From assembly GCA_948469375.1 (NCBI GenBank), contig CAOKLO010000014.1:1-61110 (forward strand): DNA of 61,110 nucleotides, in the 5' to 3' direction. Below the pieces are notes generated by a model that had not been told where the DNA came from, made no database searches, and saw only the letters and a program-made list of their open reading frames with translations. The stretch comes from an uncultured bacterium. GTDB taxonomy: Bacteria; Bacillota; Clostridia; Oscillospirales; Oscillospiraceae. The position numbers and the translations under genes are program-made. This document shows positions 37,764-51,602 of the stretch, piece after piece; the first letter of the stretch is position 1; the number at the start of each line of letters is the position of its first letter.

Positions 37764-38882
37764 TTATCCGACCCGCTCTCCCTTGAAGAACACGGCCTCC
37801 ACAACCAGGTCCTGGTCCAAGACTACCACATTGGCCCGTTTACCCGGCTCCAAACTGCCCACCCGGTCAAAGATTCCGATGACCTGGGCGGGGTTCACCG
37901 CTGCGGCCCGCACCGCGTCCGCCAAGGGGATTCCAAAGGAGACGGCGGTCTTCATGCACGCCATCAAATCAGTGACCGACCCGGCGATGGTGCCGTCCGC
38001 CAGGGTGGCCAGAGGCCCTTTTACGGTGACCTCCTGCCCGCCCAGGTCATATTTTCCGTCGGTCATACCGGCGGCCCGCATAGTGTCCGAGATCAGCACC
38101 ACCCGGTCCGCGCCGAACAGCTTGAAGGCCGCCCGCACCATGGAGGGGTGGATATGAATGCCGTCGCAGATCAGCTCCACCCTTGTCCAGGGGCTGTCCA
38201 GAGCCGCCCCCACCACACCAGGGGCCCGGTGCGTAAATCCAGGCATGGCGTTGAACAGGTGGGTGACCTCCCTGGCGCCGGAGCGAAACGCCTCCAGGGC
38301 CGTGTCATACTCGGCGGTGGTGTGGGCCACCGCCACGTTCACATCCTCGCAGACCGCGCGGATAAATTCCATGGCCCCCGGCTCCTCCGGGGCCACGGAC
38401 ACCAGCTTTACCAGCCCTTCAGCCGCGCCCATCAGCCGGCGGAGCATGGCCGCGTCCGGTCTGTGGAGCCAATCGCCGTTCTGAGCGCCCCGTTTGGCGT
38501 AGGACAGAAAGGGGCCCTCCAAATTGATTCCCACCAGGTCCGCGCCGGAGCGGCCCTCCCTCTTGTGGGCGGCGGCGGTCCGACACACCTTCAGCAGCCG
38601 CTCCTCCAACAGGGTCATTCCCGCCGGGCAAATCTGAGTCACGCCCCGGGACAGCTCATACTCCGCTATGGACTGAAGTCCCTCCGGGTCTCCGTCGGAC
38701 AGGTCCGCCCCCCGGCAGCCGTGGAAGTGCACGTCGGTGAGGCCGGGGATAATCCAGCATCCGGAAGCGTCATAGGTCTCCCTGTCCCGGCTGTCGGGTG
38801 TGAGCAGCGCTCCGTCAAAGCACACGTCCCGCTCCACAAACCCATGCTCCAGGTCGAACACCCTGCCGCCGGTGATTTTCAT
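37764..38882 (-). CDS. nagA: N-acetylglucosamine-6-phosphate deacetylase
   Basis: 372 aa. It removes acetate from GlcNAc-6-P to give glucosamine-6-P in the cytoplasm. Motifs: HFHGCRGADLSDG (about 58-70), NLEGPFLS with the metal-binding Glu, VAHTTAEY, HLFNAMPGFTHRAPG and the catalytic aspartate in LISDTM. Its ATG overlaps the nagB stop (ATGA). It joins amino-sugar catabolism with nagB and, formerly, sialic acid breakdown genes upstream. Confidence 0.96.
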   Translation of the reverse strand: MKITGGRVFDLEHGFVERDVCFDGALLTPDSRDRETYDASGCWIIPGLTDVHFHGCRGADLSDGDPEGLQSIAEYELSRGVTQICPAGMTLLEERLLKVCRTAAAHKREGRSGADLVGINLEGPFLSYAKRGAQNGDWLHRPDAAMLRRLMGAAEGLVKLVSVAPEEPGAMEFIRAVCEDVNVAVAHTTAEYDTALEAFRSGAREVTHLFNAMPGFTHRAPGVVGAALDSPWTRVELICDGIHIHPSMVRAAFKLFGADRVVLISDTMRAAGMTDGKYDLGGQEVTVKGPLATLADGTIAGSVTDLMACMKTAVSFGIPLADAVRAAAVNPAQVIGIFDRVGSLEPGKRANVVVLDQDLVVEAVFFKGERVG

Positions 38883-39619
38883 ACGCCGGCCTCCGTCAGC
38901 CTGCTCAGCGCGCTCTCGTCCCCCACCAGAGTGACGTCCGGGTGGAGCTGGAGAATGGAGGCGGGCACTTCCGGGGTGACGGGGCCGCAGACGGCCTTAT
39001 ACACCGCCTCCGCCTTGTCCTCGCCGCTGACCACCACCAGAATCCTCCTGGCCCGCATGATGGTGCCGACGCCCATGCTCAAGGCCTGCTTGGGCACATC
39101 GTCCGCGCTGGCAAAAAACCGGGAATTGGCCTCAATAGTGCTCTGGGCCAGATCCACCAGGTGGGTAATAACAGGGAAATGGTCGCCGGGCTCGTTGAAG
39201 CCGATGTGGCCGTTGCGGCCCATGCCCAGCAGCTGCAAATCGGCGTAGCCAAGCTCCGCCACCAGCTTCTCATACCGCTCGCCCTCCGCCGCCGGGTCCT
39301 TGGCCAGACCGTCGGGCACGTTGGTGTTCTCAGGCTTGATGTCCACATGGTCAAACAGGCTGGCCTGCATAAAATAGCGGTAGCTCTGGTCGTGGTCCGG
39401 GGCCAGCCCATAGTACTCGTCCAGGTTCACCGAGCGCACCCCGGCAAAGCTCAAATCCCCCTGCTTGTACCACTGGACCAGCTGCTTATAGGTTCCCACA
39501 GGAGAGGACCCTGTGGCAAGGCCCAGCACACAATCCGGCTTGGACACCACCTGGGCGGCGATCACCGCCGCCGCCCGGCGGCTCATGGCGTCATAATCCT
39601 TTTCACGATAAATTCTCAT
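38879..39619 (-). CDS. nagB: Glucosamine-6-phosphate deaminase
   Basis: 246 aa. It converts glucosamine-6-P to fructose-6-P and ammonia. Motifs: LGLATGSSPVGTY (phosphate loop), VNLDEYYGL with the catalytic aspartate, GRNGHIGFNEPG and the hexosamine-binding VGTIMRARRILVVVSG. First gene of nagB-nagA with its own promoter that begins immediately after the nanA remnant stop. AAGAGGTGA precedes ATG 39619. Confidence 0.96.
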   Translation of the reverse strand: MRIYREKDYDAMSRRAAAVIAAQVVSKPDCVLGLATGSSPVGTYKQLVQWYKQGDLSFAGVRSVNLDEYYGLAPDHDQSYRYFMQASLFDHVDIKPENTNVPDGLAKDPAAEGERYEKLVAELGYADLQLLGMGRNGHIGFNEPGDHFPVITHLVDLAQSTIEANSRFFASADDVPKQALSMGVGTIMRARRILVVVSGEDKAEAVYKAVCGPVTPEVPASILQLHPDVTLVGDESALSRLTEAGV

Positions 39620-39639
39620 GGCAAATCACCTCTTAGACA

Positions 39640-39667
39640 TATTATATCCAACCGGGCAATCCCGTCA
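39640..39667 (-). promoter_or_regulatory. Promoter of nagBA
   Basis: TTGACG (39662-39667), 16-bp spacer and TATAAT (39640-39645) on the minus strand. Confidence 0.75.
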
Positions 39668-39669
39668 AC

Positions 39670-39893
39670 ATCATTTTTTCAATTTCCCCACTGCCGCCGC
39701 GATCATATCCGCGGCCTCCTTCACAGTGGGGGCGTCCCCGGGCTCCAGACTCGCCGGGGGGCGCGGACGCCGCCGACGGCTCCGGCGGCCAGACCAGACA
39801 GCAGCCGCTCATCCGGCCCGTCGAACACGATGGCCCCCTCGTCCCGCCACATCTGGATGTCCTGGACGGGCATGGAGGAATTTTTCACCCCGA
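39670..39893 (-). pseudogene. nanA: N-acetylneuraminate lyase remnant
   Basis: A piece of the lyase barrel starts at GVKNSS (Schiff-base lysine motif of the DapA/NanA family) and continues MPVQDIQMWRDEGAIVFDG, PDERLLSGLAAGAVGG. The frame is then lost. The C-terminal tail APTVKEAADMIAAAVGKLKK ends in another frame at TGA 39670-39672. Roughly 80 residues between the two pieces and the whole N-terminal half are missing. It lies right before nagBA in a decayed sialic acid locus. Confidence 0.78.
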
Positions 39894-39928
39894 CGACCCG
39901 GGGATTTTATCGTCACATGTGCGCTCCG

Positions 39929-40048
39929 CCGGAGGGTGGAGATACCCAAGGAGATCGTCAGATTCGCCCGGGATCGGAGCATAATCAATTGCAGGAAGTG
40001 GTCGTTCCAGGCATTGATGAAGGTGAACATGGCCAGCGCGCCATACCC
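39929..40048 (-). pseudogene. Sugar ABC permease remnant (MalG type)
   Basis: A 40-residue fragment, GYGALAMFTFINAWNDHF followed by LQLIMLRSRANLTISLGIST, matches the conserved C-terminal part of MalG-type permeases, including the region after the EAA loop. It is fused in frame to the substrate-binding protein fragment upstream and runs out of frame into the nanA remnant. No full permease remains. Confidence 0.75.
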
Positions 40049-40262
40049 GCGTTGGAGCTCTCCGCCGCCGCTGGTGATCTTCTGGAGCATATCGAACCAC
40101 TCAGCGCTCATACTGGCGAAGCCGTCCATGGTGTTGTAGTAAGGGCCGTTGCCCTGGCAGGAGGTGAGCAGGTTGTCGTCGTCCACAGCCTTTTTGAAAA
40201 CGTGGGGGCCCGCCACAGCAGCTCCACCTCAGCGGCGGGCTCGCCGCCCTGGCTGCCGCTCC
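40049..40262 (-). pseudogene. Sugar ABC substrate-binding protein remnant
   Basis: Directly after the RpiR stop, GSGSQGGEPAAEVELLWR looks like the mature N-terminus of a lipoprotein. A deletion and frameshift join it to a C-terminal piece (VDDDNLLTSCQGNGPYYNT, MDGFASMSAEWFDMLQKITS). The signal peptide and about 300 central residues are gone. It fits an extracellular solute-binding protein of the decayed transporter; family assignment is by pattern and neighbourhood. Confidence 0.6.
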
Positions 40263-41117
40263 CTACATATGCTTATCCGCCAAGGCGTCCGCCACCATCC
40301 TGCGCCGCTGGCGGCAGGTCTCTATATCCCGGCGGCACACCTCGTTGAACAGCACGTCGGTGAGGAACAGCTGCCCCATGCGGGCGGCCACGGAACCCAT
40401 TTGGAGCGGACTCTCCCTGGCCCCGCACTCCAGCACCAGGTCCGCGCAGGCCGCGCCGGGAGACTTGGGGAAATGGGTAATCAGGATGGTCTTGGCCCCC
40501 CGTTCCTGGGCAATTTTCAGCACGTCCACCAAATCCTTGGTGGAACCGGAGTAGGAATAATACAGCACCACGTCCCGGGGCGTGAGCATGACGCACCGGA
40601 TGGTCTGAAGATGGGCGTCCTCAATGGCATAGAAGTTGGGCATGGCGGTGGAAAACAGATGGGCAGCCTCCCGGGCCGGCACCATAGAGCCTCCCAGCCC
40701 CATACACAGCACCCGCTCCGCCGCAATCAGCAGGTCCGCCGCCCTGGAGACGTCGGCGGGGTCGAGCATCTCCATGGTCTGGGTGATGGCCTCCACGTTG
40801 GCGGCACACAGCTTGCGGCACATCTCGCCCACATCGTCCTCCTCGGCGATTTCGCCGTACAGCGGATTGATGGGCTTGGTCCCGGCGGCGGCCCCCGCCA
40901 CCGTCAGCTTGAAGGCGCTGTAGCCCTTATAGCCCAGCCGGCGGCAGAAGCGGGATATGGTGGCCTCCGCCACATCCGCTACCTCCGCCAACTCGGAGAT
41001 GGACATATACTGGCAGTCCTGACGGTGGAGCATAATATAATCGGCGATCTTCCGCTCCGCCCCGGTGAGCTGGTAATACTCCCGGTTAATTCTGGTAAAT
41101 ACGTCGCCGTAGGGCAT
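40263..41117 (-). CDS. RpiR family transcriptional regulator
   Basis: 284 aa from ATG 41117, with GAGGGGG 5 nt upstream. An N-terminal HTH_6 domain (about 1-77; LTGAERKIADYIMLH, SISELAEVADVAEATISRFCRRLGYKGYSAFKL) precedes a C-terminal SIS sugar-phosphate isomerase domain (about 120-250; VLCMGLGGSMVPAREAAHLF, VVLYYSYSGSTKDLVDVLKIA). These regulators bind phosphosugars and often control sialic acid or amino-sugar genes (NanR/MurR type). It is 10 nt downstream of the AGE epimerase gene. Confidence 0.92.
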   Translation of the reverse strand: MPYGDVFTRINREYYQLTGAERKIADYIMLHRQDCQYMSISELAEVADVAEATISRFCRRLGYKGYSAFKLTVAGAAAGTKPINPLYGEIAEEDDVGEMCRKLCAANVEAITQTMEMLDPADVSRAADLLIAAERVLCMGLGGSMVPAREAAHLFSTAMPNFYAIEDAHLQTIRCVMLTPRDVVLYYSYSGSTKDLVDVLKIAQERGAKTILITHFPKSPGAACADLVLECGARESPLQMGSVAARMGQLFLTDVLFNEVCRRDIETCRQRRRMVADALADKHM

Positions 41118-41127
41118 GTCCGCCCCC

Positions 41128-42333
41128 TCACTGCCCGTCCAGGAGTCCATTCAGCATCCGCTCGCACATGCTCAGCATCCGGGGCAGATGGAAGGGACCC
41201 TTGAACGTGCTCCCCTTACACGGGGGTTGGGTGGGCATTCCGTCCCGGCGCAGATATCCGTACCACTCGCCGCAATCCGGGTCGGAGAAGTGCTCCTTGC
41301 AGTAATCCAGTGTCGTTTCAAACCAATCCAGGTATTTTTCCTCCCCGGTGTCCCGGTAGAGCATGAGGCTGGCGATGAGGATCTCGTCGTGGGACCACCA
41401 CAGCTTCATGTCGTGCTCACAGGCCTCGGGGGGGCGGCCCAGGCAGTCGATGACGTGCAGCAGCCCGCCGTACTCCTGGTCCCAGCCCGCCTCAATGGCC
41501 CAGTTGAAGATTTGGGCCGCCTTCCGCACCAGCTCCTTGTCGCCGGTGCGCTGGGCGTGCTCCAGCAGGAACCACACGCCCTTGATGTCGTGGCCCGGGT
41601 TGACCACCCGGCCCTCGGTGCAGTCAAGCCGCGCCGTACCGTCCTCGGCCACGTTCTCCAGCACGCATTTCAGCTCGGGGTGTACGTGGTACTTGAAAAT
41701 TTCCTCCACGCACTGGGCGGCGCACTGTTCATAGAGCTCCTTCCGCTCCGGGTCCACCCGCAGCATCACCCCGGTGACGTTGAGAAGAATCATGGGGATA
41801 CCGAAAGCCCGGCCCGTGCGGGTCTCGGGGATGGTCTTGGGACCCAGTCCGGTGGGATCCTTCATGCCGTGGTTCAAGTTCCAGTACAGGTCGTACCCCC
41901 GGCGGGCACGGACCAAATGCTCCTCGCCTCCGACCACGCCGTAATACTCCGCGTTGGCCAGGGCGTAAAACGCCTCGGAGAAGCAATAGCGCCGCTGGCG
42001 CAGGGGCTTGCCGTCCTCAGTGACGGTAAAGTACAGGCGGCCTCCCGCCTCGTGGTTAATGCAGTGGTCCTCCAGGAAGTCCAGGCAGCTCTTGCTGGCG
42101 GCCAGCCACTTCTCCCGGGGACCGTAGAGATGGCACAGCCAGGCAAAAATCCATCCGCAGCGCCCCTGCATCCACACGCTTTTGTCCGTGGAAAAGACCT
42201 TGCCCTCCCGGTCCAGGCAGGTGTACACGCCGCCGTGCACCGGGTCCATGCCGTTTTTCAGCCAGAAGTCCACGCAGCGGTCCAGCTCCTCCCTGAGCCA
42301 CTGCTGATGACTCCGAAGTCGGGTCGCATCCAT
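41128..42333 (-). CDS. AGE family epimerase (N-acylglucosamine 2-epimerase)
   Basis: 401 aa from ATG 42333 (AAGGTGG 8 nt upstream). An (alpha/alpha)6-barrel enzyme: WMQGRCGWIFAWLCHLYG, conserved GHDIKGVWFLLEHA and WWSHDEILIASLMLYRDTG with the catalytic histidines, and REWYGYLRRDG-like EWYGYLRRDG. Renin-binding-protein-type members interconvert GlcNAc and ManNAc, and others act on mannose or cellobiose. With nagAB, RpiR and a nanA remnant nearby, ManNAc-to-GlcNAc conversion in sialic acid breakdown is likely. Confidence 0.9.
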   Translation of the reverse strand: MDATRLRSHQQWLREELDRCVDFWLKNGMDPVHGGVYTCLDREGKVFSTDKSVWMQGRCGWIFAWLCHLYGPREKWLAASKSCLDFLEDHCINHEAGGRLYFTVTEDGKPLRQRRYCFSEAFYALANAEYYGVVGGEEHLVRARRGYDLYWNLNHGMKDPTGLGPKTIPETRTGRAFGIPMILLNVTGVMLRVDPERKELYEQCAAQCVEEIFKYHVHPELKCVLENVAEDGTARLDCTEGRVVNPGHDIKGVWFLLEHAQRTGDKELVRKAAQIFNWAIEAGWDQEYGGLLHVIDCLGRPPEACEHDMKLWWSHDEILIASLMLYRDTGEEKYLDWFETTLDYCKEHFSDPDCGEWYGYLRRDGMPTQPPCKGSTFKGPFHLPRMLSMCERMLNGLLDGQ

Positions 42334-42408
42334 TGAGCATTCCACCTTTCTATTTGATCTGGCCGATTTCGCTTTGCGCTATTGATATCCGTTTCCTTGA
42401 ATGCTTTT

Positions 42409-42879: not shown

Positions 42880-45471
42880 TCAGCCTTCAATGATCCGGCG
42901 AATCTCCGCCTCCACCTGCCTGACCTCAAATTCCAGCTCGGCGGCGGGCAGCCGCACCGCACCGTGACCCAGAATGATCATCTGCTCCAGGCCGTCGGAG
43001 GTGGCCACCCGCACCCGGTGCTCCCGGCGCTCCTTGGCCAGGGCGTAGGTGGTCTTTTCAATATACATGTCCGCCGTCTCCGCCTCTTTGGTGTAGACCA
43101 CATAGACATCCCCCGCCCGCTCGACGGAGCCGGGGTTTCCCTTCACCTTGTAGGCGTCGAACACCACGATAACCCTGCATTTTTTCCACCCCTGATAGTT
43201 GCGCAGCCGGTCGATGAGCCGGACCCGGGCTCCGTCCAGGTCCTCCCTGGCAATGGCGCGCAGCTCGTCCCAGGCGTGGATGATGTTGTAGCCGTCCACC
43301 AGCAGGTAATCCTCCCCGTTCCGGACCTTGAGACCCTTCCAGGGCTTGGGCTTCGGGGGTGAGGACCTGGGCGCGGACCGGAAGGCATGCGGCTTGACGG
43401 GACCGTAGGCCCGCTCAAAAATGGCCTCCAGTTCCTTGTCCAGCGCCGCCCGGGATTCGTAGCTCGTGGCCTGCCGGCGGACCGGAGCGGTCTCCTGCCG
43501 GGCCTGACGCTCCCCTTGGGGCCGCCAGCCGCTGTCCAGGTGCATATGCTCCCGCACCTCATCCCAGGGCACGTTGAACCCCGCCCCGTGGGCGCAGAAC
43601 ACCGACCCGGCCGGATTGGCCGCGTCCCGGTCCGGGTCGTAGCCCACCGCCTCGATCACCGCTTCGGCGTTGTGGCAGGACCGGTAGCCCTCCACCGCGC
43701 AGGAGAACCGTCCCCGGCCCCCGGTGTAGGCCGCCACCTCCGTCCAATAGCCCCCCACCTCGGATACGGGCACGCTGCCCGTAAGGACAGACGCCTCCCC
43801 CGCCCCCTCCGGGGCCTGGAACTCCGCGCCCATGCGCTGGAGGTCGGTCATGGCCCGGCCCACATTGGCGGTAGGCGTCTCCAGCCGGAAGGAATACCAG
43901 GGCTCCAGCAGCACGCTTTCAGCGCACATCAAGCCCTGCCGCACCGCCCGATAGGTGGCCTGGCGGAAATCGCCCCCCTCGGTGTGCTTCAAATGGGCCC
44001 GGCCTGTCAGCAGGGTGATCTTCATATCGGTAACGGGCGCTCCGGTTAGCACCCCTACATGGGTCTTTTCCATCAGGTGGGTGAGCACCAGCCGCTGCCA
44101 GTTTCGGTCCAGCACGTTTTCCGGACAGGTGGTGTCCAGCACCAGCCCCGCCCCCCGCTCCAGCGGCTCCAGCAGAAGATGTACCTCGGCGTAATGCCGC
44201 AGGGGCTCGAAATGCCCCACCCCCTCCGCCGGGGCGGCGATGGTCTCTAAATACACGATCCGTCCGGGGCCGAAGGACACCGACGCCCCAAAGCGCCGCT
44301 CCATCAGCCGGGACAAAACCTCCAGCTGCACCTCCCCCATGAGATGCACCCGGAGCTCACCCAAAAGCTCGTTCCACTCCACCCGGAGCTGGGGGTCCTC
44401 CTCCTCCAATATGCGAAGCTGATTCAGCAGGGTGTGCACGTCCCCGCCCGCCGGGGGCAGCACCTGGTAGGCCAGCACCGGCTCCAGCTCCGGGCCCGCC
44501 CAGTCCTCCTCCGCTCCCAGACCCTGGCCCGCCCGGGTTTGGCTCAACCCGGTGACGGCGCATACCGTCCCCGCCGGGGCCTCCTCCGCCGGAACAAATT
44601 TTGCCCCCGAATACAGCCTCATCTGGGTGGTCTTTTCCTCCCAGTCCGGGCCCTTCAACGCGTCCCGCACCTTCAAAACGCCGCCCGTCACCTTCAGCCA
44701 GGTGAGCCGCTCTCCCCGGTCGTCCCGGGAGATCTTGAACACCCGGGCGGCGAAATTTCCCGACCAGTCCGGCTCCAGGGTATAGCGCGCCAGTCCGTCC
44801 AGCAGCTCCTCCACGCCCTCCGCCCTCAGGGCCGAGCCGAAGAAGCAGGGGAACAGCTTCCGTTCCACGATAAGGGCGGACAGGTCGTCCGTCTCCAGCG
44901 TTCCCGTCTCCAGATAGTGCTCCATCAGCTCCTCGCCGCACAGGGCGGCCTGCTCCAGCACGTCCTCCCAGGGGCCGGAAAAATCGGCGCAGCCGTCGCT
45001 CAGCCGCTCCCGCAACTGGGCCAGCAGCTTGTCCCGGTCCGTGCCGGGCTGGTCCATTTTGTTGACAAACAGAAAGGTGGGCACCTGGTGGCGCTCCAGC
45101 AGCCGCCACAGGGTTTCCGTGTGCCCCTGCACCCCGTCCGCCCCGCTGACCAGCAGCACGGCGTAGTCCAGCACCTGCACCGCCCGCTCCATCTCGGCGG
45201 AAAAGTCCACATGTCCGGGGGTGTCCAGCAGGGTGAACTCACAGTCCTTCCAGCTCAGCCGCGCCTGCTTGGAGAAAATGGTGATGCCCCGCTCCCGCTC
45301 CTGCTGGTCGGTGTCCAGAAATGCGTCGCCGTGGTCCACCCGCCCCAGCCTGCGCACAGCGCCGGACAGATACAGCATGGCCTCGGACAACGTGGTTTTG
45401 CCCGAGTCCACATGGGCCAGCAGACCCGTACAAAGGCGTTTGACCTGCTTTTTCCCCGGGTTTGCGCCCAT
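42880..45471 (-). CDS. TetM/EF-G-like ribosomal GTPase fused to a YacP/Rae1-type NYN endonuclease
   Basis: 863 aa. Residues 10-650 are a TetM/EF-G-family translational GTPase: AHVDSGKT (19-26), RGITI, DTPGH (83-87), NKMD (137-140), then domains II-V. Residues about 718-863 are a NYN (PIN-like) domain close to Bacillus YacP/Rae1, with LLVDGYN (D726), VIVVFDAYKVKG (D772), TKEAETAD (D801) and VATSDGLEQ (D826), so all four acidic catalytic residues are present. A Pro/Ser/Lys-rich linker (about 660-715) joins them. Rae1 is known to cut mRNA in the ribosomal A site. TetM-type GTPases bind that same site. Annotation as tetracycline resistance is possible but not supported by context. Confidence 0.88.
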   Translation of the reverse strand: MGANPGKKQVKRLCTGLLAHVDSGKTTLSEAMLYLSGAVRRLGRVDHGDAFLDTDQQERERGITIFSKQARLSWKDCEFTLLDTPGHVDFSAEMERAVQVLDYAVLLVSGADGVQGHTETLWRLLERHQVPTFLFVNKMDQPGTDRDKLLAQLRERLSDGCADFSGPWEDVLEQAALCGEELMEHYLETGTLETDDLSALIVERKLFPCFFGSALRAEGVEELLDGLARYTLEPDWSGNFAARVFKISRDDRGERLTWLKVTGGVLKVRDALKGPDWEEKTTQMRLYSGAKFVPAEEAPAGTVCAVTGLSQTRAGQGLGAEEDWAGPELEPVLAYQVLPPAGGDVHTLLNQLRILEEEDPQLRVEWNELLGELRVHLMGEVQLEVLSRLMERRFGASVSFGPGRIVYLETIAAPAEGVGHFEPLRHYAEVHLLLEPLERGAGLVLDTTCPENVLDRNWQRLVLTHLMEKTHVGVLTGAPVTDMKITLLTGRAHLKHTEGGDFRQATYRAVRQGLMCAESVLLEPWYSFRLETPTANVGRAMTDLQRMGAEFQAPEGAGEASVLTGSVPVSEVGGYWTEVAAYTGGRGRFSCAVEGYRSCHNAEAVIEAVGYDPDRDAANPAGSVFCAHGAGFNVPWDEVREHMHLDSGWRPQGERQARQETAPVRRQATSYESRAALDKELEAIFERAYGPVKPHAFRSAPRSSPPKPKPWKGLKVRNGEDYLLVDGYNIIHAWDELRAIAREDLDGARVRLIDRLRNYQGWKKCRVIVVFDAYKVKGNPGSVERAGDVYVVYTKEAETADMYIEKTTYALAKERREHRVRVATSDGLEQMIILGHGAVRLPAAELEFEVRQVEAEIRRIIEG

Positions 45472-45500
45472 TTTTTCACCTCCGGCAGCTTTTGTCGATT

Positions 45501-45506
45501 ATTATA
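45501..45506 (-). promoter_or_regulatory. Extended -10 promoter of the GTPase-NYN gene
   Basis: TGC-TATAAT on the minus strand about 30 nt before the start codon; no clear -35. The GTPase-NYN gene may be expressed apart from the ABC genes upstream. Confidence 0.5.
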
Positions 45507-45562: not shown

Positions 45563-46144
45563 TTATACGCGTCTCAGCGGCGGGCCGTCCAGGGCTATGA
45601 CCGCGTCACAGACGGCCAGCACCTGGGCCTGGTGACTGGCCAGCACCACGGGGACGTTCAGCTCCCGCAGGTACCCCAATATGCGCTCTGTCCGCATCCG
45701 GTCCACTCCGGCGAAGGGCTCGTCCAGCAGGAGCAAGTCTCCCCCCAGCGCCGCGCAGCGGGCCAAGGCCAGCCGCCGCGCCATACCGCCGGACAGGGCG
45801 GAGGGGTAAGCGTTTTCCTCCCCCTCCAGCCCGGCAAAGGCCAGCCAGCGGCCCAGCTCTCCCCGGCGGTCCTTGGAAAGCACGTCGGTGATATGCCGGC
45901 CCACCGTCCGCCAGGGCAGCAGGCGGTCCTCCTGGAACAGGAACGCCGTCCGGGCCGGGTCCGCGCCGGACACCGTGCCGCTCTCCGGCGCTTCCAGTCC
46001 GGCGATGACCCGCAGGAGGGTGGTCTTGCCGCAGCCGGAAGGACCAGACAAGGCCGTGAGCCCCTGTCCGGGTATTTCCAGGGAAAAGCGGTCCAGCACC
46101 AGCTTATCTCCATAACGGAGCGTTAAATTCTCCAGGCATATCAC
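45563..46144 (-). CDS. ABC transporter ATP-binding protein (SsuB/TauB-like)
   Basis: 193 aa from GTG 46144, overlapping the permease stop (GTGA). Walker [10 protein letters not shown] (about 34-42), Q-loop [14 protein letters not shown] typical of the nitrate/taurine/sulfonate family, signature [15 protein letters not shown] and Walker [11 protein letters not shown]. Slightly short for the family (usually 230-260 aa), lacking the C-terminal extension. The frame is open far upstream, but that part is the permease gene read out of frame. Confidence 0.92.
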
Positions 46145-46875
46145 CCTCTGTTCCCCCTCTCCAGCACTCGGCGGAGCAGTCCCTCCAAAATCAGGGACAG
46201 CGCCACAATGGTGAGGGTCCAGGCAAACAGCTCCGCCGTCTCCAGCCCCAGCTTGGCCTGTTGGATGCGGGAGCCGATGGCCCGGGTGGGCGGGCAGATA
46301 ACCTCCGCCGCCACTCCGGACTTCCACGCCAGCCCAAAGGCGGTAAGCAGTCCGGCGGACAGGTGGGGCCGCAGGGCAGGCAGGTAAATCAGCCGCAGCG
46401 TTTTTGCCCGAGAAAAGCGGTACGCCCGGGCAAGCTCCAGCAGCTTCCCGTCCAGGTTTTCCAGCCCCGCAGACAGCGCTCCCCATACCACCGGCAGCAC
46501 CATCAACCCCGCAATGACCCACGGAATGGCGGCCCGCGCCACCCACAGGTACACCAGCAGGATGAAAGACACCACCGGCGTGGCCCGAACCACCCGGATG
46601 GCCGGGGACGCCAGCCGGTCCGCCCAGGGGAAAAAATGGGTGAGGAAGGCCAAAGCCGCCCCCGCCGGCACCCCCCACAGCAAACCCAGGAATACCCGCC
46701 CCAGCGTGGACCCCACCGACAGCCAGAAGTCGGCCGTCCGGGCCAGGGCCAGCAGGCCCTCCCCCACCCGCGCCGGGCCGGGGAGCAGCAGCTCCCGCCC
46801 CACGGCTAGAGACGCCAGCTGCCATACCGCCAGCCAGAACGCCACAGGTATGATGATTTTTGGAAGCTTTTTCAT
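46141..46875 (-). CDS. ABC transporter permease (SsuC/TauC-like)
   Basis: 244 aa from ATG 46875 ([14 protein letters not shown]). Six predicted membrane helices and the EAA-like loop [45 protein letters not shown], here split over about residues 150-190, mark it as a nitrate/sulfonate/taurine-type permease. It overlaps the ATPase start and follows the binding protein by 67 nt, forming a three-gene importer. The substrate could be a sulfonate, thiamine precursor or similar. No riboswitch is seen upstream. Confidence 0.92.
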
Positions 46876-46942
46876 ACTCTTACCATCACCGTGCCGACGC
46901 CTTGCAATTTTGACCACGTTGAAAATGAGCTAAAAGTTCTTT

Positions 46943-48025
46943 TCAATTCCTCGTCCAGTAGATGCCGCCGCCGGGCAGGGCGCCGCCCACGGAGGCGGGG
47001 TCCACAGCATACAGCAGGGAGTAGTAGCCGGACATGTTTTTTTCCATATCCGCCCCGGAGATAAAGGCCAGATGGCACTGGGGAATGGCCAGCCTGGCAA
47101 TCGCTGCGCTGGGCGTGATCCCGTAATTCGCCACCCATTCCGCCGCCTCGTCCACATTGCTGTTCACATAGTTGATGGACGCCTCATAATCGGCGAGAAA
47201 ATGCTCCACGTAATCCGGATAGGTCTCCAGCAGCTCGCTCCGGGCCACCACGGCGGTCATGATGAGCCGGCTGCCGTTTTCCAGCGCGTCCCAGGCCTCG
47301 GTCATGTCCACAGCCTGACGCACCTGCCCCCCGCCCTTGGCAATGGCGGCGGTGGCGGCGGGGACGGGCAGCATGGCGCACTCGATCTCGCCGCTGAGCA
47401 GCTTGGCGCTGATCTCTGCGGCGTCCGCGAACACCACCTCAACATCCTTCCCGATCTCCAAGCCGTTTTCCTCAAGCAGATAGCGCAGCACATACTCCGG
47501 ATTGGCCCCCTGCCCTGCAGCGTAAAGGGTTTTGCCCACCAGGTCGGCCATGGAGTTGATGTTGGAGGTCCCATTGCCCTCCAGGATGTGCAGGACGCCC
47601 AGCGTGCCCACGGCGATGATTCTCACACCGCCGTCCGTCTTGTTGTAGAGGTTCACCGCCACATTGGAGGCCACAGTGGCAATGTCGATCTTCCCGTTGG
47701 AAAGCCCCGCCACCAGCTCGCTGTTGTCGGCGGCGATGGTGTACTCATAGGAGGTTTGCAGGCTGGCGGGGTCGTTGTCGACGGCGTTCAGCAGCTGGGC
47801 CGCTCCCACCCCGGTGGGACCAGACAGCACCGCCAAATGCACCGGGCCATAGGGTGTCACGTGAACGTCTTCGGAGACTTCAGCGGAGGGCTCCTGGCTG
47901 GGAAGCGCCTGGGAGGCCCCTCCAGAGGGAGCGCCGGAGGGATCGTCTCCGGACGACCGGCAGGCGGTCAGGGTAAACAGCAGGGCAAAGGCCAGCAGCA
48001 GCGCCGGCAATTTCATTTTTTTCAT
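46943..48025 (-). CDS. ABC transporter substrate-binding lipoprotein (SsuA/NMT1-like)
   Basis: 360 aa. Lipoprotein signal MKKMKLPALLLAFALLFTLTAC with lipobox LTAC, then a Ser/Gly/Pro-rich linker (about 24-52). The binding domain has PVHLAVLSGPTGVGAAQLL, ELVAGLSNGKIDIATVASNVAVNLYNKT, NINSMADLVGKTLYAAGQGANPEYVLRYLL and EVVFADAAEISAKLLSGEIECAMLP, the SsuA/ThiY-type pattern. AAGGATC precedes ATG 48025. First gene of the three-gene importer. Confidence 0.9.
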   Translation of the reverse strand: MKKMKLPALLLAFALLFTLTACRSSGDDPSGAPSGGASQALPSQEPSAEVSEDVHVTPYGPVHLAVLSGPTGVGAAQLLNAVDNDPASLQTSYEYTIAADNSELVAGLSNGKIDIATVASNVAVNLYNKTDGGVRIIAVGTLGVLHILEGNGTSNINSMADLVGKTLYAAGQGANPEYVLRYLLEENGLEIGKDVEVVFADAAEISAKLLSGEIECAMLPVPAATAAIAKGGGQVRQAVDMTEAWDALENGSRLIMTAVVARSELLETYPDYVEHFLADYEASINYVNSNVDEAAEWVANYGITPSAAIARLAIPQCHLAFISGADMEKNMSGYYSLLYAVDPASVGGALPGGGIYWTRN

Positions 48026-49652: not shown

Positions 49653-51602
49653 ATGGCAATGGCAAAAAAGAACGATGGAAAAGCCGGCGGCAGAAAAAAG
49701 ACTCCGGCTAGGGCAGCCGTCGCGGAACGCAAAGCCGGCGCTGCTAAAAAGAGCACGGCAAAAGAGCCGGTCGGGAACATTGAGGCAGATGTGCCAAAAG
49801 TAAGCGCCGAGGAGGCGGTCAAGACGGAAGCCCCGAACGCAGAGGCGGTGGAAGCGGTCAAAGAGGAAGCGCGAAAGGCCGAGACCCCAAAGGCGGTCAA
49901 GGAGGAGACGTTGAAGGCTGAGGCCGCGAAACCAATGGAACCGGCAAAGGCAGAGACGGTGGATGCAGTCAAGGCGGAACCGACAAAGGCCAAGGCTGCG
50001 AAAGCGGCGAAAGAGGGTGCCTCAGCAAAGGCGGCCACGGCAAAAGCAGGTAAAGCAGAGCCGCCAAAGGCAGAGACAGCAGAGGCGGGTCATAAAGAGC
50101 CGTCAGAGGAAACGAATCTGAAAGACGCCGCGCCGGAGGAAGCCTATATGTCCCCCAGAAGAAGCGTTGTGTTTATCGGGTCGGAGTGCTACCCCTTTGT
50201 CAAAACCGGCGGCTTGGGCGACGTCATGTATGCGCTCCCCAAGGCGCTGGTAAAGCAGAACTGCGATGTGAAGGTCATTCTCCCGCGATACAAATGTATC
50301 CCGTGGGAATATCAGGAGAAAATGATATACCGCGGTTCCTTTGAAATGGATCTCTGCGCGGACGGCCGGTCCTTTTATGTGGGCATCATGGAATATGTCT
50401 GGGACGGCGTAGTGTATGATTTCATCGACAATGAAGAATTCTTCAGCAACGGAAATCCGTATACCAATCTTATTGATGATATCCCGAAATACTGCTATTT
50501 TGCCAAGGCGGCCCTGGCGGCGCTAAACTATATGGATTGGGTCCCCAATATCATTCATTGCCATGATTGGCAGGCAGCTCTGGTCCCCGTATATCTGAGG
50601 ACTCAGTTTGTCAACACGAAGCTGACCGCCGCAAAAACCATATTGACCATTCACAATCTGCGGTTCCAGGGAATTTATGATATTCCCACCATCCGCTACT
50701 GGTCTGGGCTGCCGGATTATGTCTTTAATAAGGACGCCCTAAAGACCGGCTACAGAGACGCGAACATGCTGAAGGGCGGCTTGACGTATTCCAATATCAT
50801 CACAACGGTAAGCCAGACCTACGCAGGCGAAATTCAGAGCCCCTATTATGGCGAGACCCTGGACGCCCATCTGCGGTATCATTCCGGTAAGCTGCGCGGC
50901 ATCGTAAACGGCATTGACTGCGACATCTGGAATCCCGGTACAGACGCCAGACTGAGTGCAAATTACGATATCACCAATGTTCTGGACAAGAAAAAGGAAA
51001 ACAAGCGCAGGCTGCAGGAGGAATTAGGACTGGTTCAGGATGACCATAAATTTGTGATCGGCCTGATCTCCCGGCTGACGGACCAGAAGGGACTGGACCT
51101 GCTCAACGCCATTATCCCGCAGATCATGGACGATCACACGCAGATCGTGGTACTGGGCACCGGGGACCGGGTATATGAGGATTCCTTCCGGTATTATGAG
51201 AACGCGTACCGCGGAAACGTATGCTCCAATATCATGTATGATGAAACGCGCGCCCATAGAATCTACGCGGGCGCGGACGCTCTGCTGGTTCCCTCCCAGT
51301 TTGAGCCGTGCGGATTGACGCAATTGATCGCGATGCACTACGGCACGATACCGGTCGTTCGGGAAACCGGCGGGCTGAAGGACACGGTGGAGCCGTATAA
51401 TATGTATTCCAATACGGGAAACGGCTTTACGTTTGACCGTTATGATGCCGGCCTGCTGCTGGATGCCATTAACCGGGCAAAGACGCTCTATTTCGAGAAT
51501 CGCTGGTGCTGGGATGAAATGGTACAGCGGGATATGGATAAAAACCTGTCCTGGGAGAATTCCGCAAAGCAGTATAAGGATCTGTATTTAGAATTAACCT
51601 GA
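49653..51602 (+). CDS. glgA: Glycogen synthase with long Ala/Lys/Glu-rich N-terminal extension
   Basis: 649 aa. Residues 166-649 are a complete GT5 ADP-glucose glycogen synthase: FVKTGGLGDVMYALPKAL (the KxGG site), RLTDQKGL and FEPCGLTQLIAMHYGT. Residues 1-165 are low-complexity, dominated by Ala, Lys, Glu and Pro (for example KAEPTKAKAAKAAKEG), reminiscent of histone-H1-like or linker tails; no family was recognised. GGAGG precedes ATG 49653. A second GGAGG lies 8 nt before an internal ATG at 50148 (residue 166), so a normal-length enzyme could also be made. No other glg genes are adjacent. Codon use differs from neighbours. Confidence 0.92.
   Translation: MAMAKKNDGKAGGRKKTPARAAVAERKAGAAKKSTAKEPVGNIEADVPKVSAEEAVKTEAPNAEAVEAVKEEARKAETPKAVKEETLKAEAAKPMEPAKAETVDAVKAEPTKAKAAKAAKEGASAKAATAKAGKAEPPKAETAEAGHKEPSEETNLKDAAPEEAYMSPRRSVVFIGSECYPFVKTGGLGDVMYALPKALVKQNCDVKVILPRYKCIPWEYQEKMIYRGSFEMDLCADGRSFYVGIMEYVWDGVVYDFIDNEEFFSNGNPYTNLIDDIPKYCYFAKAALAALNYMDWVPNIIHCHDWQAALVPVYLRTQFVNTKLTAAKTILTIHNLRFQGIYDIPTIRYWSGLPDYVFNKDALKTGYRDANMLKGGLTYSNIITTVSQTYAGEIQSPYYGETLDAHLRYHSGKLRGIVNGIDCDIWNPGTDARLSANYDITNVLDKKKENKRRLQEELGLVQDDHKFVIGLISRLTDQKGLDLLNAIIPQIMDDHTQIVVLGTGDRVYEDSFRYYENAYRGNVCSNIMYDETRAHRIYAGADALLVPSQFEPCGLTQLIAMHYGTIPVVRETGGLKDTVEPYNMYSNTGNGFTFDRYDAGLLLDAINRAKTLYFENRWCWDEMVQRDMDKNLSWENSAKQYKDLYLELT

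Follow-up and report, generated by a model that had tools for sequence, protein, structure and literature searches.

A translational GTPase of the EF-G type joined to a Rae1/YacP nuclease domain in Clostridia: a candidate stand-in for the separate Rae1 protein

EF-G-like factors, such as EF-G and TetM, insert their domain IV into the ribosomal A site. In the available sections of PMC6613710, the nuclease Rae1 (YacP) of Bacillus subtilis is described as an A-site endoribonuclease that is encoded beside the gene of an RlmB homolog (yacO/rlmB) and acts in one pathway with it. In the available sections of Atkinson 2015 (PMC4342817), a single sentence reports that a YacP-like NYN domain has been gained by Tet proteins in ten species of Clostridiales, with the guess that RNase activity may serve these proteins in resistance. 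Here we analyze a protein with the same domain architecture, encoded in a 61,110-nucleotide stretch of DNA from an uncultured Oscillospiraceae bacterium (GCA_948469375.1, contig CAOKLO010000014.1, positions 1 to 61,110), hereafter the window. The gene (42880..45471, minus strand) encodes an 863-residue fusion in which a complete EF-G-type translational GTPase is followed by a short C-terminal extension, a flexible linker and, at the end, the NYN nuclease domain of Rae1/YacP. The window protein and the fusions of Atkinson 2015 very probably belong to the same family; in the sections available, that work filed the fusions under Tet with a guessed role in resistance, whereas here the family falls outside the tested clade of tetracycline ribosomal protection proteins (RPPs) and is tied to the loss of stand-alone yacP. 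The literature searched, in which subscription papers were mostly outside the scope, yielded no other paper on the pairing of a GTPase with a YacP NYN domain and no functional study of it, and the main text of PMC8547433 does not mention YacP, NYN or GTPase. The architecture is known; that literature gave no report of three points described below, namely that the fusion appears to replace rae1, that its GTPase belongs to a lineage of its own and that the Rae1 tail is mostly lost. Genomes (G), contigs (C) and loci (L) are given by our own handles where they have to be told apart.

An earlier note made from the letters of the window alone had proposed that the gene fuses a GTPase to a Rae1/YacP NYN domain with its acidic residues kept, and this is confirmed by profiles, a structural model and an alignment of 102 fused proteins. 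The NYN domain (residues 721–863, 42883..43311; all features of the gene lie on the minus strand) scores 157 bits against the NYN_YacP profile, above the cut-off of 24.6. The matches listed by a fold search with the model of the whole protein include no Rae1 because EF-G-type chains fill the list, and the NYN domain was therefore modeled alone; its predicted structure shows the fold of Rae1 together with the acidic residues of the active site. The alignment draws on a scan of named genomes that returned at least 590 relatives of any degree, of which the best 80 were used; all of these best 80 have an open fused frame, in a set that is biased toward the fused form. Across the 102 fused proteins D726, D772, D801, D826 and E805 are invariant and E796 is altered in three. 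These results bear on the proposal that the protein acts in ribosome rescue or assembly, with an NYN domain that would process rRNA or release stalled subunits and would not cut mRNA in the A site. NYN domains were initially proposed to act in rRNA and tRNA maturation (cited in the available part of PMC4342817) and stand-alone yacP adjoins rlmB, an rRNA methyltransferase gene; however, both the nearest structure and the nearest sequence to the window domain are those of Rae1, described as an A-site mRNA endonuclease in the sections available of PMC6613710, and we regard a rescue or assembly role of this kind as very unlikely.

The distribution of NYN_YacP matches suggests, from sequence, that the fusion stands in for a separate Rae1 gene. 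Unlike rae1 of B. subtilis, the window fusion is not beside rlmB: in its own genome (assembly 91.6% complete) the fusion is on contig C14 and rlmB on contig C48, and the fused NYN_YacP is the sole match. Among 393 genomes of the class, 250 have an NYN_YacP match and 245 of these have a single one; a fused or separate state was assigned only within 150 match places that were sized (80 in frames of at least 734 residues, 65 in frames of at most 220 residues and five of 295–501 residues, which were left aside). The five genomes with more than one match are G395, which holds the fusion plus an intact 171-residue YacP, G481, in which the fusion is accompanied by two YacP fragments that are out of frame, and G235, G286 and G320, in which the second match is weak and below the cut-off. 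These weak NYN-like second proteins, in frames of 163–165 residues from one genus, lie at G235:C1:2323953-2324090, G286:C1:2636501-2636638 and G320:C20:134518-134655. We hand-picked 40 stand-alone and 40 fusion genomes for a comparison around rlmB. In the former, yacP is at most 200 bases from rlmB in 35 genomes (the exceptions are G165, G189, G232, G321 and G337); 39 of the latter 40 gave no sign of an intact yacP outside the fusion. Gene order around rlmB was inspected in eight of the 40 fusion genomes. In G410 and G235 an RNase III-domain gene, rlmB and sigH still follow one another in this order with yacP missing, in G481 a decayed yacP relic lies between rlmB and sigH, and in G395 the intact yacP is at this place (sigH and the RNase III-domain gene are profile-confirmed in all four); the surroundings of rlmB are different in G011, G125, G249 and the genome of the window, where the rlmB frame itself is hidden by the overlap filter of the gene-order reading. 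The check proposed in the earlier note, whether stand-alone yacP is absent where the fusion exists, comes out in favor of replacement, with none detected in the window's own genome and both forms seen together in one genome only. In an even sample of 149 genomes across the phylum, 11 have the family GTPase, and the fused NYN domain is present in these same 11; the 85 genomes with a match comprise these 11, 72 with frames of 163–208 residues, one with a frame of 308 residues and one with a weak match below the cut-off. A further set of 119 genomes (own included) has 63 with NYN_YacP, in frames of at least 852 residues in 61 of the 63; in G024 the end of a contig truncates the frame, in which the tail of the GTPase is visible, and in G067 the frame, assigned to neither form, starts 40 bases from the end of its contig.

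The fused domain also differs from its stand-alone counterpart at its end: Rae1/YacP of B. subtilis (5mq8, 5mq9) is a separate protein with a C-terminal tail, which the window protein lacks. Stand-alone Rae1 proteins end in LEKxRR, with the strict pattern in 26 of 28 and LENIRR, by eye, in the other two. Among fused proteins the strict pattern is found in 14 of 101 (raw counts, kinship ignored; the window protein, a row of the 102-protein alignment, is left out of this tail count), and 39 of the 101 stop by residue 150 from the DGYN motif region, before the LEKxRR site. Given that the window protein also stops short of this tail, we describe it as carrying a Rae1 domain and do not class it as a stand-alone-type Rae1. 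By alignment, the motif reaches residue 166 of B. subtilis Rae1, and the available text of PMC6613710 reports R166P in that protein as a suppressor, read as loss of Rae1 function; together these observations suggest that the tail, seemingly needed by the separate Rae1, became dispensable once the domain was fused. Most simply read, the GTPase would have taken over the job of the lost tail, perhaps ribosome binding.

The GTPase module consists of a GTP-binding domain (residues 15–230, 44782..45429, with the motifs AHVDSGKT, DTPGH and NKMD; Pfam PF00009, E 2.3e-51) and, by profile match, EF-G domains II (240–316, 44524..44754), III (330–401, 44269..44484), IV (404–517, 43921..44262) and V (520–601, 43669..43914). 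It is followed by a family-specific C-terminal extension (602–650, 43522..43668), where most of the unfused relatives shown stop, and by the linker (651–720, 43312..43521), modeled mostly with low confidence and with a predicted helix at 672–689. Among the 102 fused proteins, K25 is present in 101 (one gap), H87 in 101 and D140 in all, as are H496, T497, G499, G500, D501, F502 and R503 of loop III at the tip of domain IV, C626 and W636 in the C-terminal extension and C599 just ahead of it; the domain IV tip ranks among the best-conserved regions. The scan of named genomes, run with the family alignment, used a P-loop and a loop I pattern, the former of which also fits other GTPases, and the constancy of the P-loop and loop I comes in part from this selection; loop III played no part in the search. 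The sites of both modules look intact, and the protein is presumably active both as a GTPase and as a nuclease.

Atkinson's guess would make this module a protector of the ribosome against tetracycline or another antibiotic, with the RNase as an added step. The best-scoring NCBIfam model for the fused protein is indeed tet_protect, yet its 406.9 bits are far below the cut-off of 775 (the NCBIfam EF-G model, at 305.8 bits, is likewise below its cut-off of 659.4). A tree of 42 rows, from which the genome's own EF-G2 was dropped, places the family beside the RPPs with EF-G outside, but the five RPPs included (TetM, TetO, TetS, TetB(P) and Tet36, with TetQ, TetW, TetT and OtrA outside the sampling) form one clade (100/99), to which the family of the window protein, with the GTPase L209, is a separate sister (99/94). 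These five RPPs share the domain order I–V with the window protein at 28–31% identity and lack the C-terminal extension; the two EF-Gs compared are 28–32% identical, and the own genome encodes three further EFG_IV genes above the cut-off. The tip loops differ as well. Loop I (residues 420–431, HFEPLRHYAEVH, 44179..44214) differs from those of EF-G and the five RPPs, with NPFWA or NPYWA in the RPPs and EPLRHYAEV or a near variant in the family of the window protein. Loop III (490–511, 43939..44004) reads LKHTEGGDFR around its HTEGGDFR core where the five RPPs have SPxSTPADFR, and HTxGGDFR recurs in the seven family members compared. In addition, the fusion occurs where a widespread nuclease gene has been lost, and in a survey of neighbors over 12 kb at 68 loci (67 named loci and one from Monoglobus) plus the window, no adjoining gene family occurs in more than 16 of the 68. 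We consider antibiotic protection distinctly improbable and, judging by clade and loops, the doubt in the earlier note about a tetracycline-resistance identity appears well placed. Its statement that such proteins are usually annotated as tetracycline resistance holds in part: an unfused relative is labeled TetM/TetW/TetO/TetS family and the fusions are grouped with Tet in Atkinson 2015, but the one annotated fused record encountered reads "translation factor GTPase family protein". The unfused relative annotated as TetM family, a point in favor of protection, lies on Ligilactobacillus salivarius plasmid pHN3 (L215 5536-7926) adjoining rpsN (S14), and loci of this kind may inflate resistance-gene counts. 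L209 (347-2272, genome G487) is a divergent tetracycline-protection-like GTPase that stands between the family of the window protein and the RPPs; its tip has GGDFR, and it lacks the full C-terminal extension. An assignment of L209 as TetB(P) was rejected given just 35–36% identity, and it also lies outside the core of the family.

Most likely, the fusion goes back to one acquisition of a Rae1 NYN domain by an EF-G-type GTPase of Bacillota. In a tree of 64 GTPase rows the 40 fused ones all fall together in a single clade (100/100). Its closest relatives are unfused, and it is nested among unfused GTPases of about 650 residues, mostly from genomes with a separate Rae1. The unfused proteins (L197-L208, L210-L214, Paenibacillus cellulosilyticus and L. 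salivarius pHN3) are 40–49% identical to the window protein over the GTPase part and, where shown, have its tip loops and C-terminal extension without linker and NYN domain; the window protein in turn has the EPLRHYAEV and HTxGGDFR loops and the C-terminal Cys extension and falls in one clade with them. L209 is a more distant outlier (34% identity). With the exception of L209, the unfused proteins shown end directly after the extension, which indicates that linker and NYN domain were appended behind a natural C-terminus. Two stand-alone Rae1 proteins cluster with the NYN domains of the fusions: that of G321 (L247 4787-5308, with rlmB on another contig), which may be a domain freed from a fusion, and that of G337 (L249 3666-4181), where sigH is still adjacent.

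Based on these observations, we think it probable that the fused protein is a covalently ribosome-targeted Rae1 whose nuclease cuts mRNA in the A site or close beside it. The earlier note had envisaged docking followed by cutting; since the A site is the reported place of Rae1 as well as that of domain IV, their simultaneous binding would clash, and by analogy with the known factors such a simple scheme is sterically doubtful. If both modules need the A site, their action would be sequential. We propose that the GTPase module, via its tip and C-terminal extension, would pick and bind ribosomes with an accessible A site and hold the nuclease close by on the long flexible linker; the tethered nuclease would enter once domain IV leaves and cut the mRNA there or immediately beside it, so that cutting would fall after or between GTPase engagements. 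The fusion would thereby perform the work of a separate Rae1, presumably on the same kind of substrate, with the GTPase supplying what the lost tail gave, perhaps ribosome affinity. The earlier interpretation remains plausible on sequence grounds and is now better founded on the Rae1 side.

Besides the steric clash, several findings weigh against this proposal. G395 keeps both forms, and 56 of the 119 genomes (own included), among them four of 41 congeners, have no NYN_YacP at all; the fusion is thus patchy even within the genus and would be dispensable. Loss of the tail could equally mean loss of a dimer or stability element, and no neighbor gene at the surveyed loci points to a pathway. The unfused protein closest to the fused clade is from a genome without an NYN_YacP match (G290), and the unfused L. 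salivarius plasmid protein falls weakly within the fused clade (86/63, 42-row tree), perhaps by secondary loss of the NYN domain. In the second NYN tree, from which rows L145 and L151 were dropped, two of 29 stand-alone NYN domains (G321 and G337) lie on the fused side, and fused NYN domains as a single clade receive a p-AU of 0.079, short of rejection. Co-occurrence of the unfused GTPase with stand-alone Rae1 is weak: we hand-picked 65 stand-alone-Rae1 genomes of the class and, from 20 listed of the 143 without a match, 15 genomes free of NYN_YacP, and found the unfused GTPase in 20 of the 65 (19 without the divergent L209) versus one of the 15, namely G290 (Fisher p 0.10; the family cut of E 1e-50 was set after seeing a gap from 1.2e-53 to 1.9e-34).

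Some of these data would also suit tethering for convenience, in which an ordinary Rae1, or an rRNA- or tRNA-processing nuclease, finds its own substrate and the GTPase has a separate function and is merely co-expressed. The linker of about 70 residues, mostly of low model confidence, the separate Rae1 retained in G395 and the 20 genomes with unfused GTPase and stand-alone Rae1 as separate genes are consistent with such an arrangement. We nevertheless regard it as unlikely given that the fused form recurs in several families and outside its own class, that the Rae1 tail is largely lost once fused, and that the GTPase never occurs without the fused NYN domain in the phylum sample.

The gene is preceded by a ribosome-binding site (GGAGGTG, 45477..45483) and a possible −10 element (TATAAT, 45501..45506), both read directly from the minus strand, the latter within the 91-base gap to the upstream ABC ATPase gene. 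That gene belongs to an NMT1-type ABC transporter (ATPase, permease and binding protein; 45563-48025, minus strand), whose genes run in the same direction as the fusion and end 91 bases ahead of it. A conserved operon partner was rejected, the top recurring neighbor families being present at 16 loci (ABC-type ATPases, by eye) and 11 loci, as was a defense system, with no PADLOC match, and an RNA regulator adjoining the gene, since the sole Rfam match in the window, a T-box leader (RF00230, 12557-12796, minus strand, 112.6 bits), lies far off. The window also encodes amino-sugar genes (37764-42345, minus strand: NagA-like amidohydrolase, glucosamine-6-phosphate isomerase, RpiR regulator and GlcNAc 2-epimerase) and a glycogen/starch synthase (49653-51602, plus strand) with an Ala/Lys/Glu-rich N-terminal extension of about 170 residues, the catalytic match starting at residue 172. 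Two phage-labeled records (MT835563 and MT835514) hold a whole or nearly whole fusion. A phage origin was rejected on the basis of MT835563, which looks like bacterial DNA: five of the eight frames scanned around its fusion match families of cellular type (prolyl-tRNA synthetase, Sir2, NAD(P)H-hydrate dehydratase, solute-binding protein and peptidoglycan binding). This record (L301, MT835563.1, labeled Bacteriophage sp.) has prolyl-tRNA synthetase, Sir2 and the fusion together. The 49 relatives in IMG/VR show no match beyond query residue 657, as judged from the listing. The Monoglobus fusion (L216, NZ_OY725736.1) is on a 518-kb plasmid-labeled record with secA and spore-coat genes, which is perhaps a piece of the chromosome.

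A broader proposal, which we advance tentatively and at somewhat less than even odds, is that the fusion is a GTP-gated, single-polypeptide, ribosome-directed mRNA endonuclease, which would sense ribosomes that are stalled or have an open A site and would have taken the place of stand-alone Rae1 in much of the Clostridia, and that its unfused relatives are an unrecognized GTPase subfamily partnering Rae1 in trans. As to how Rae1 reaches and chooses ribosomes, a fusion that arose in nature and replaced the separate protein would point to a specific GTPase as the likely partner or delivery device of this nuclease. If this is true, a family filed with antibiotic resistance would move to translation-coupled mRNA decay, and resistance-gene counts in metagenomes could be corrected.
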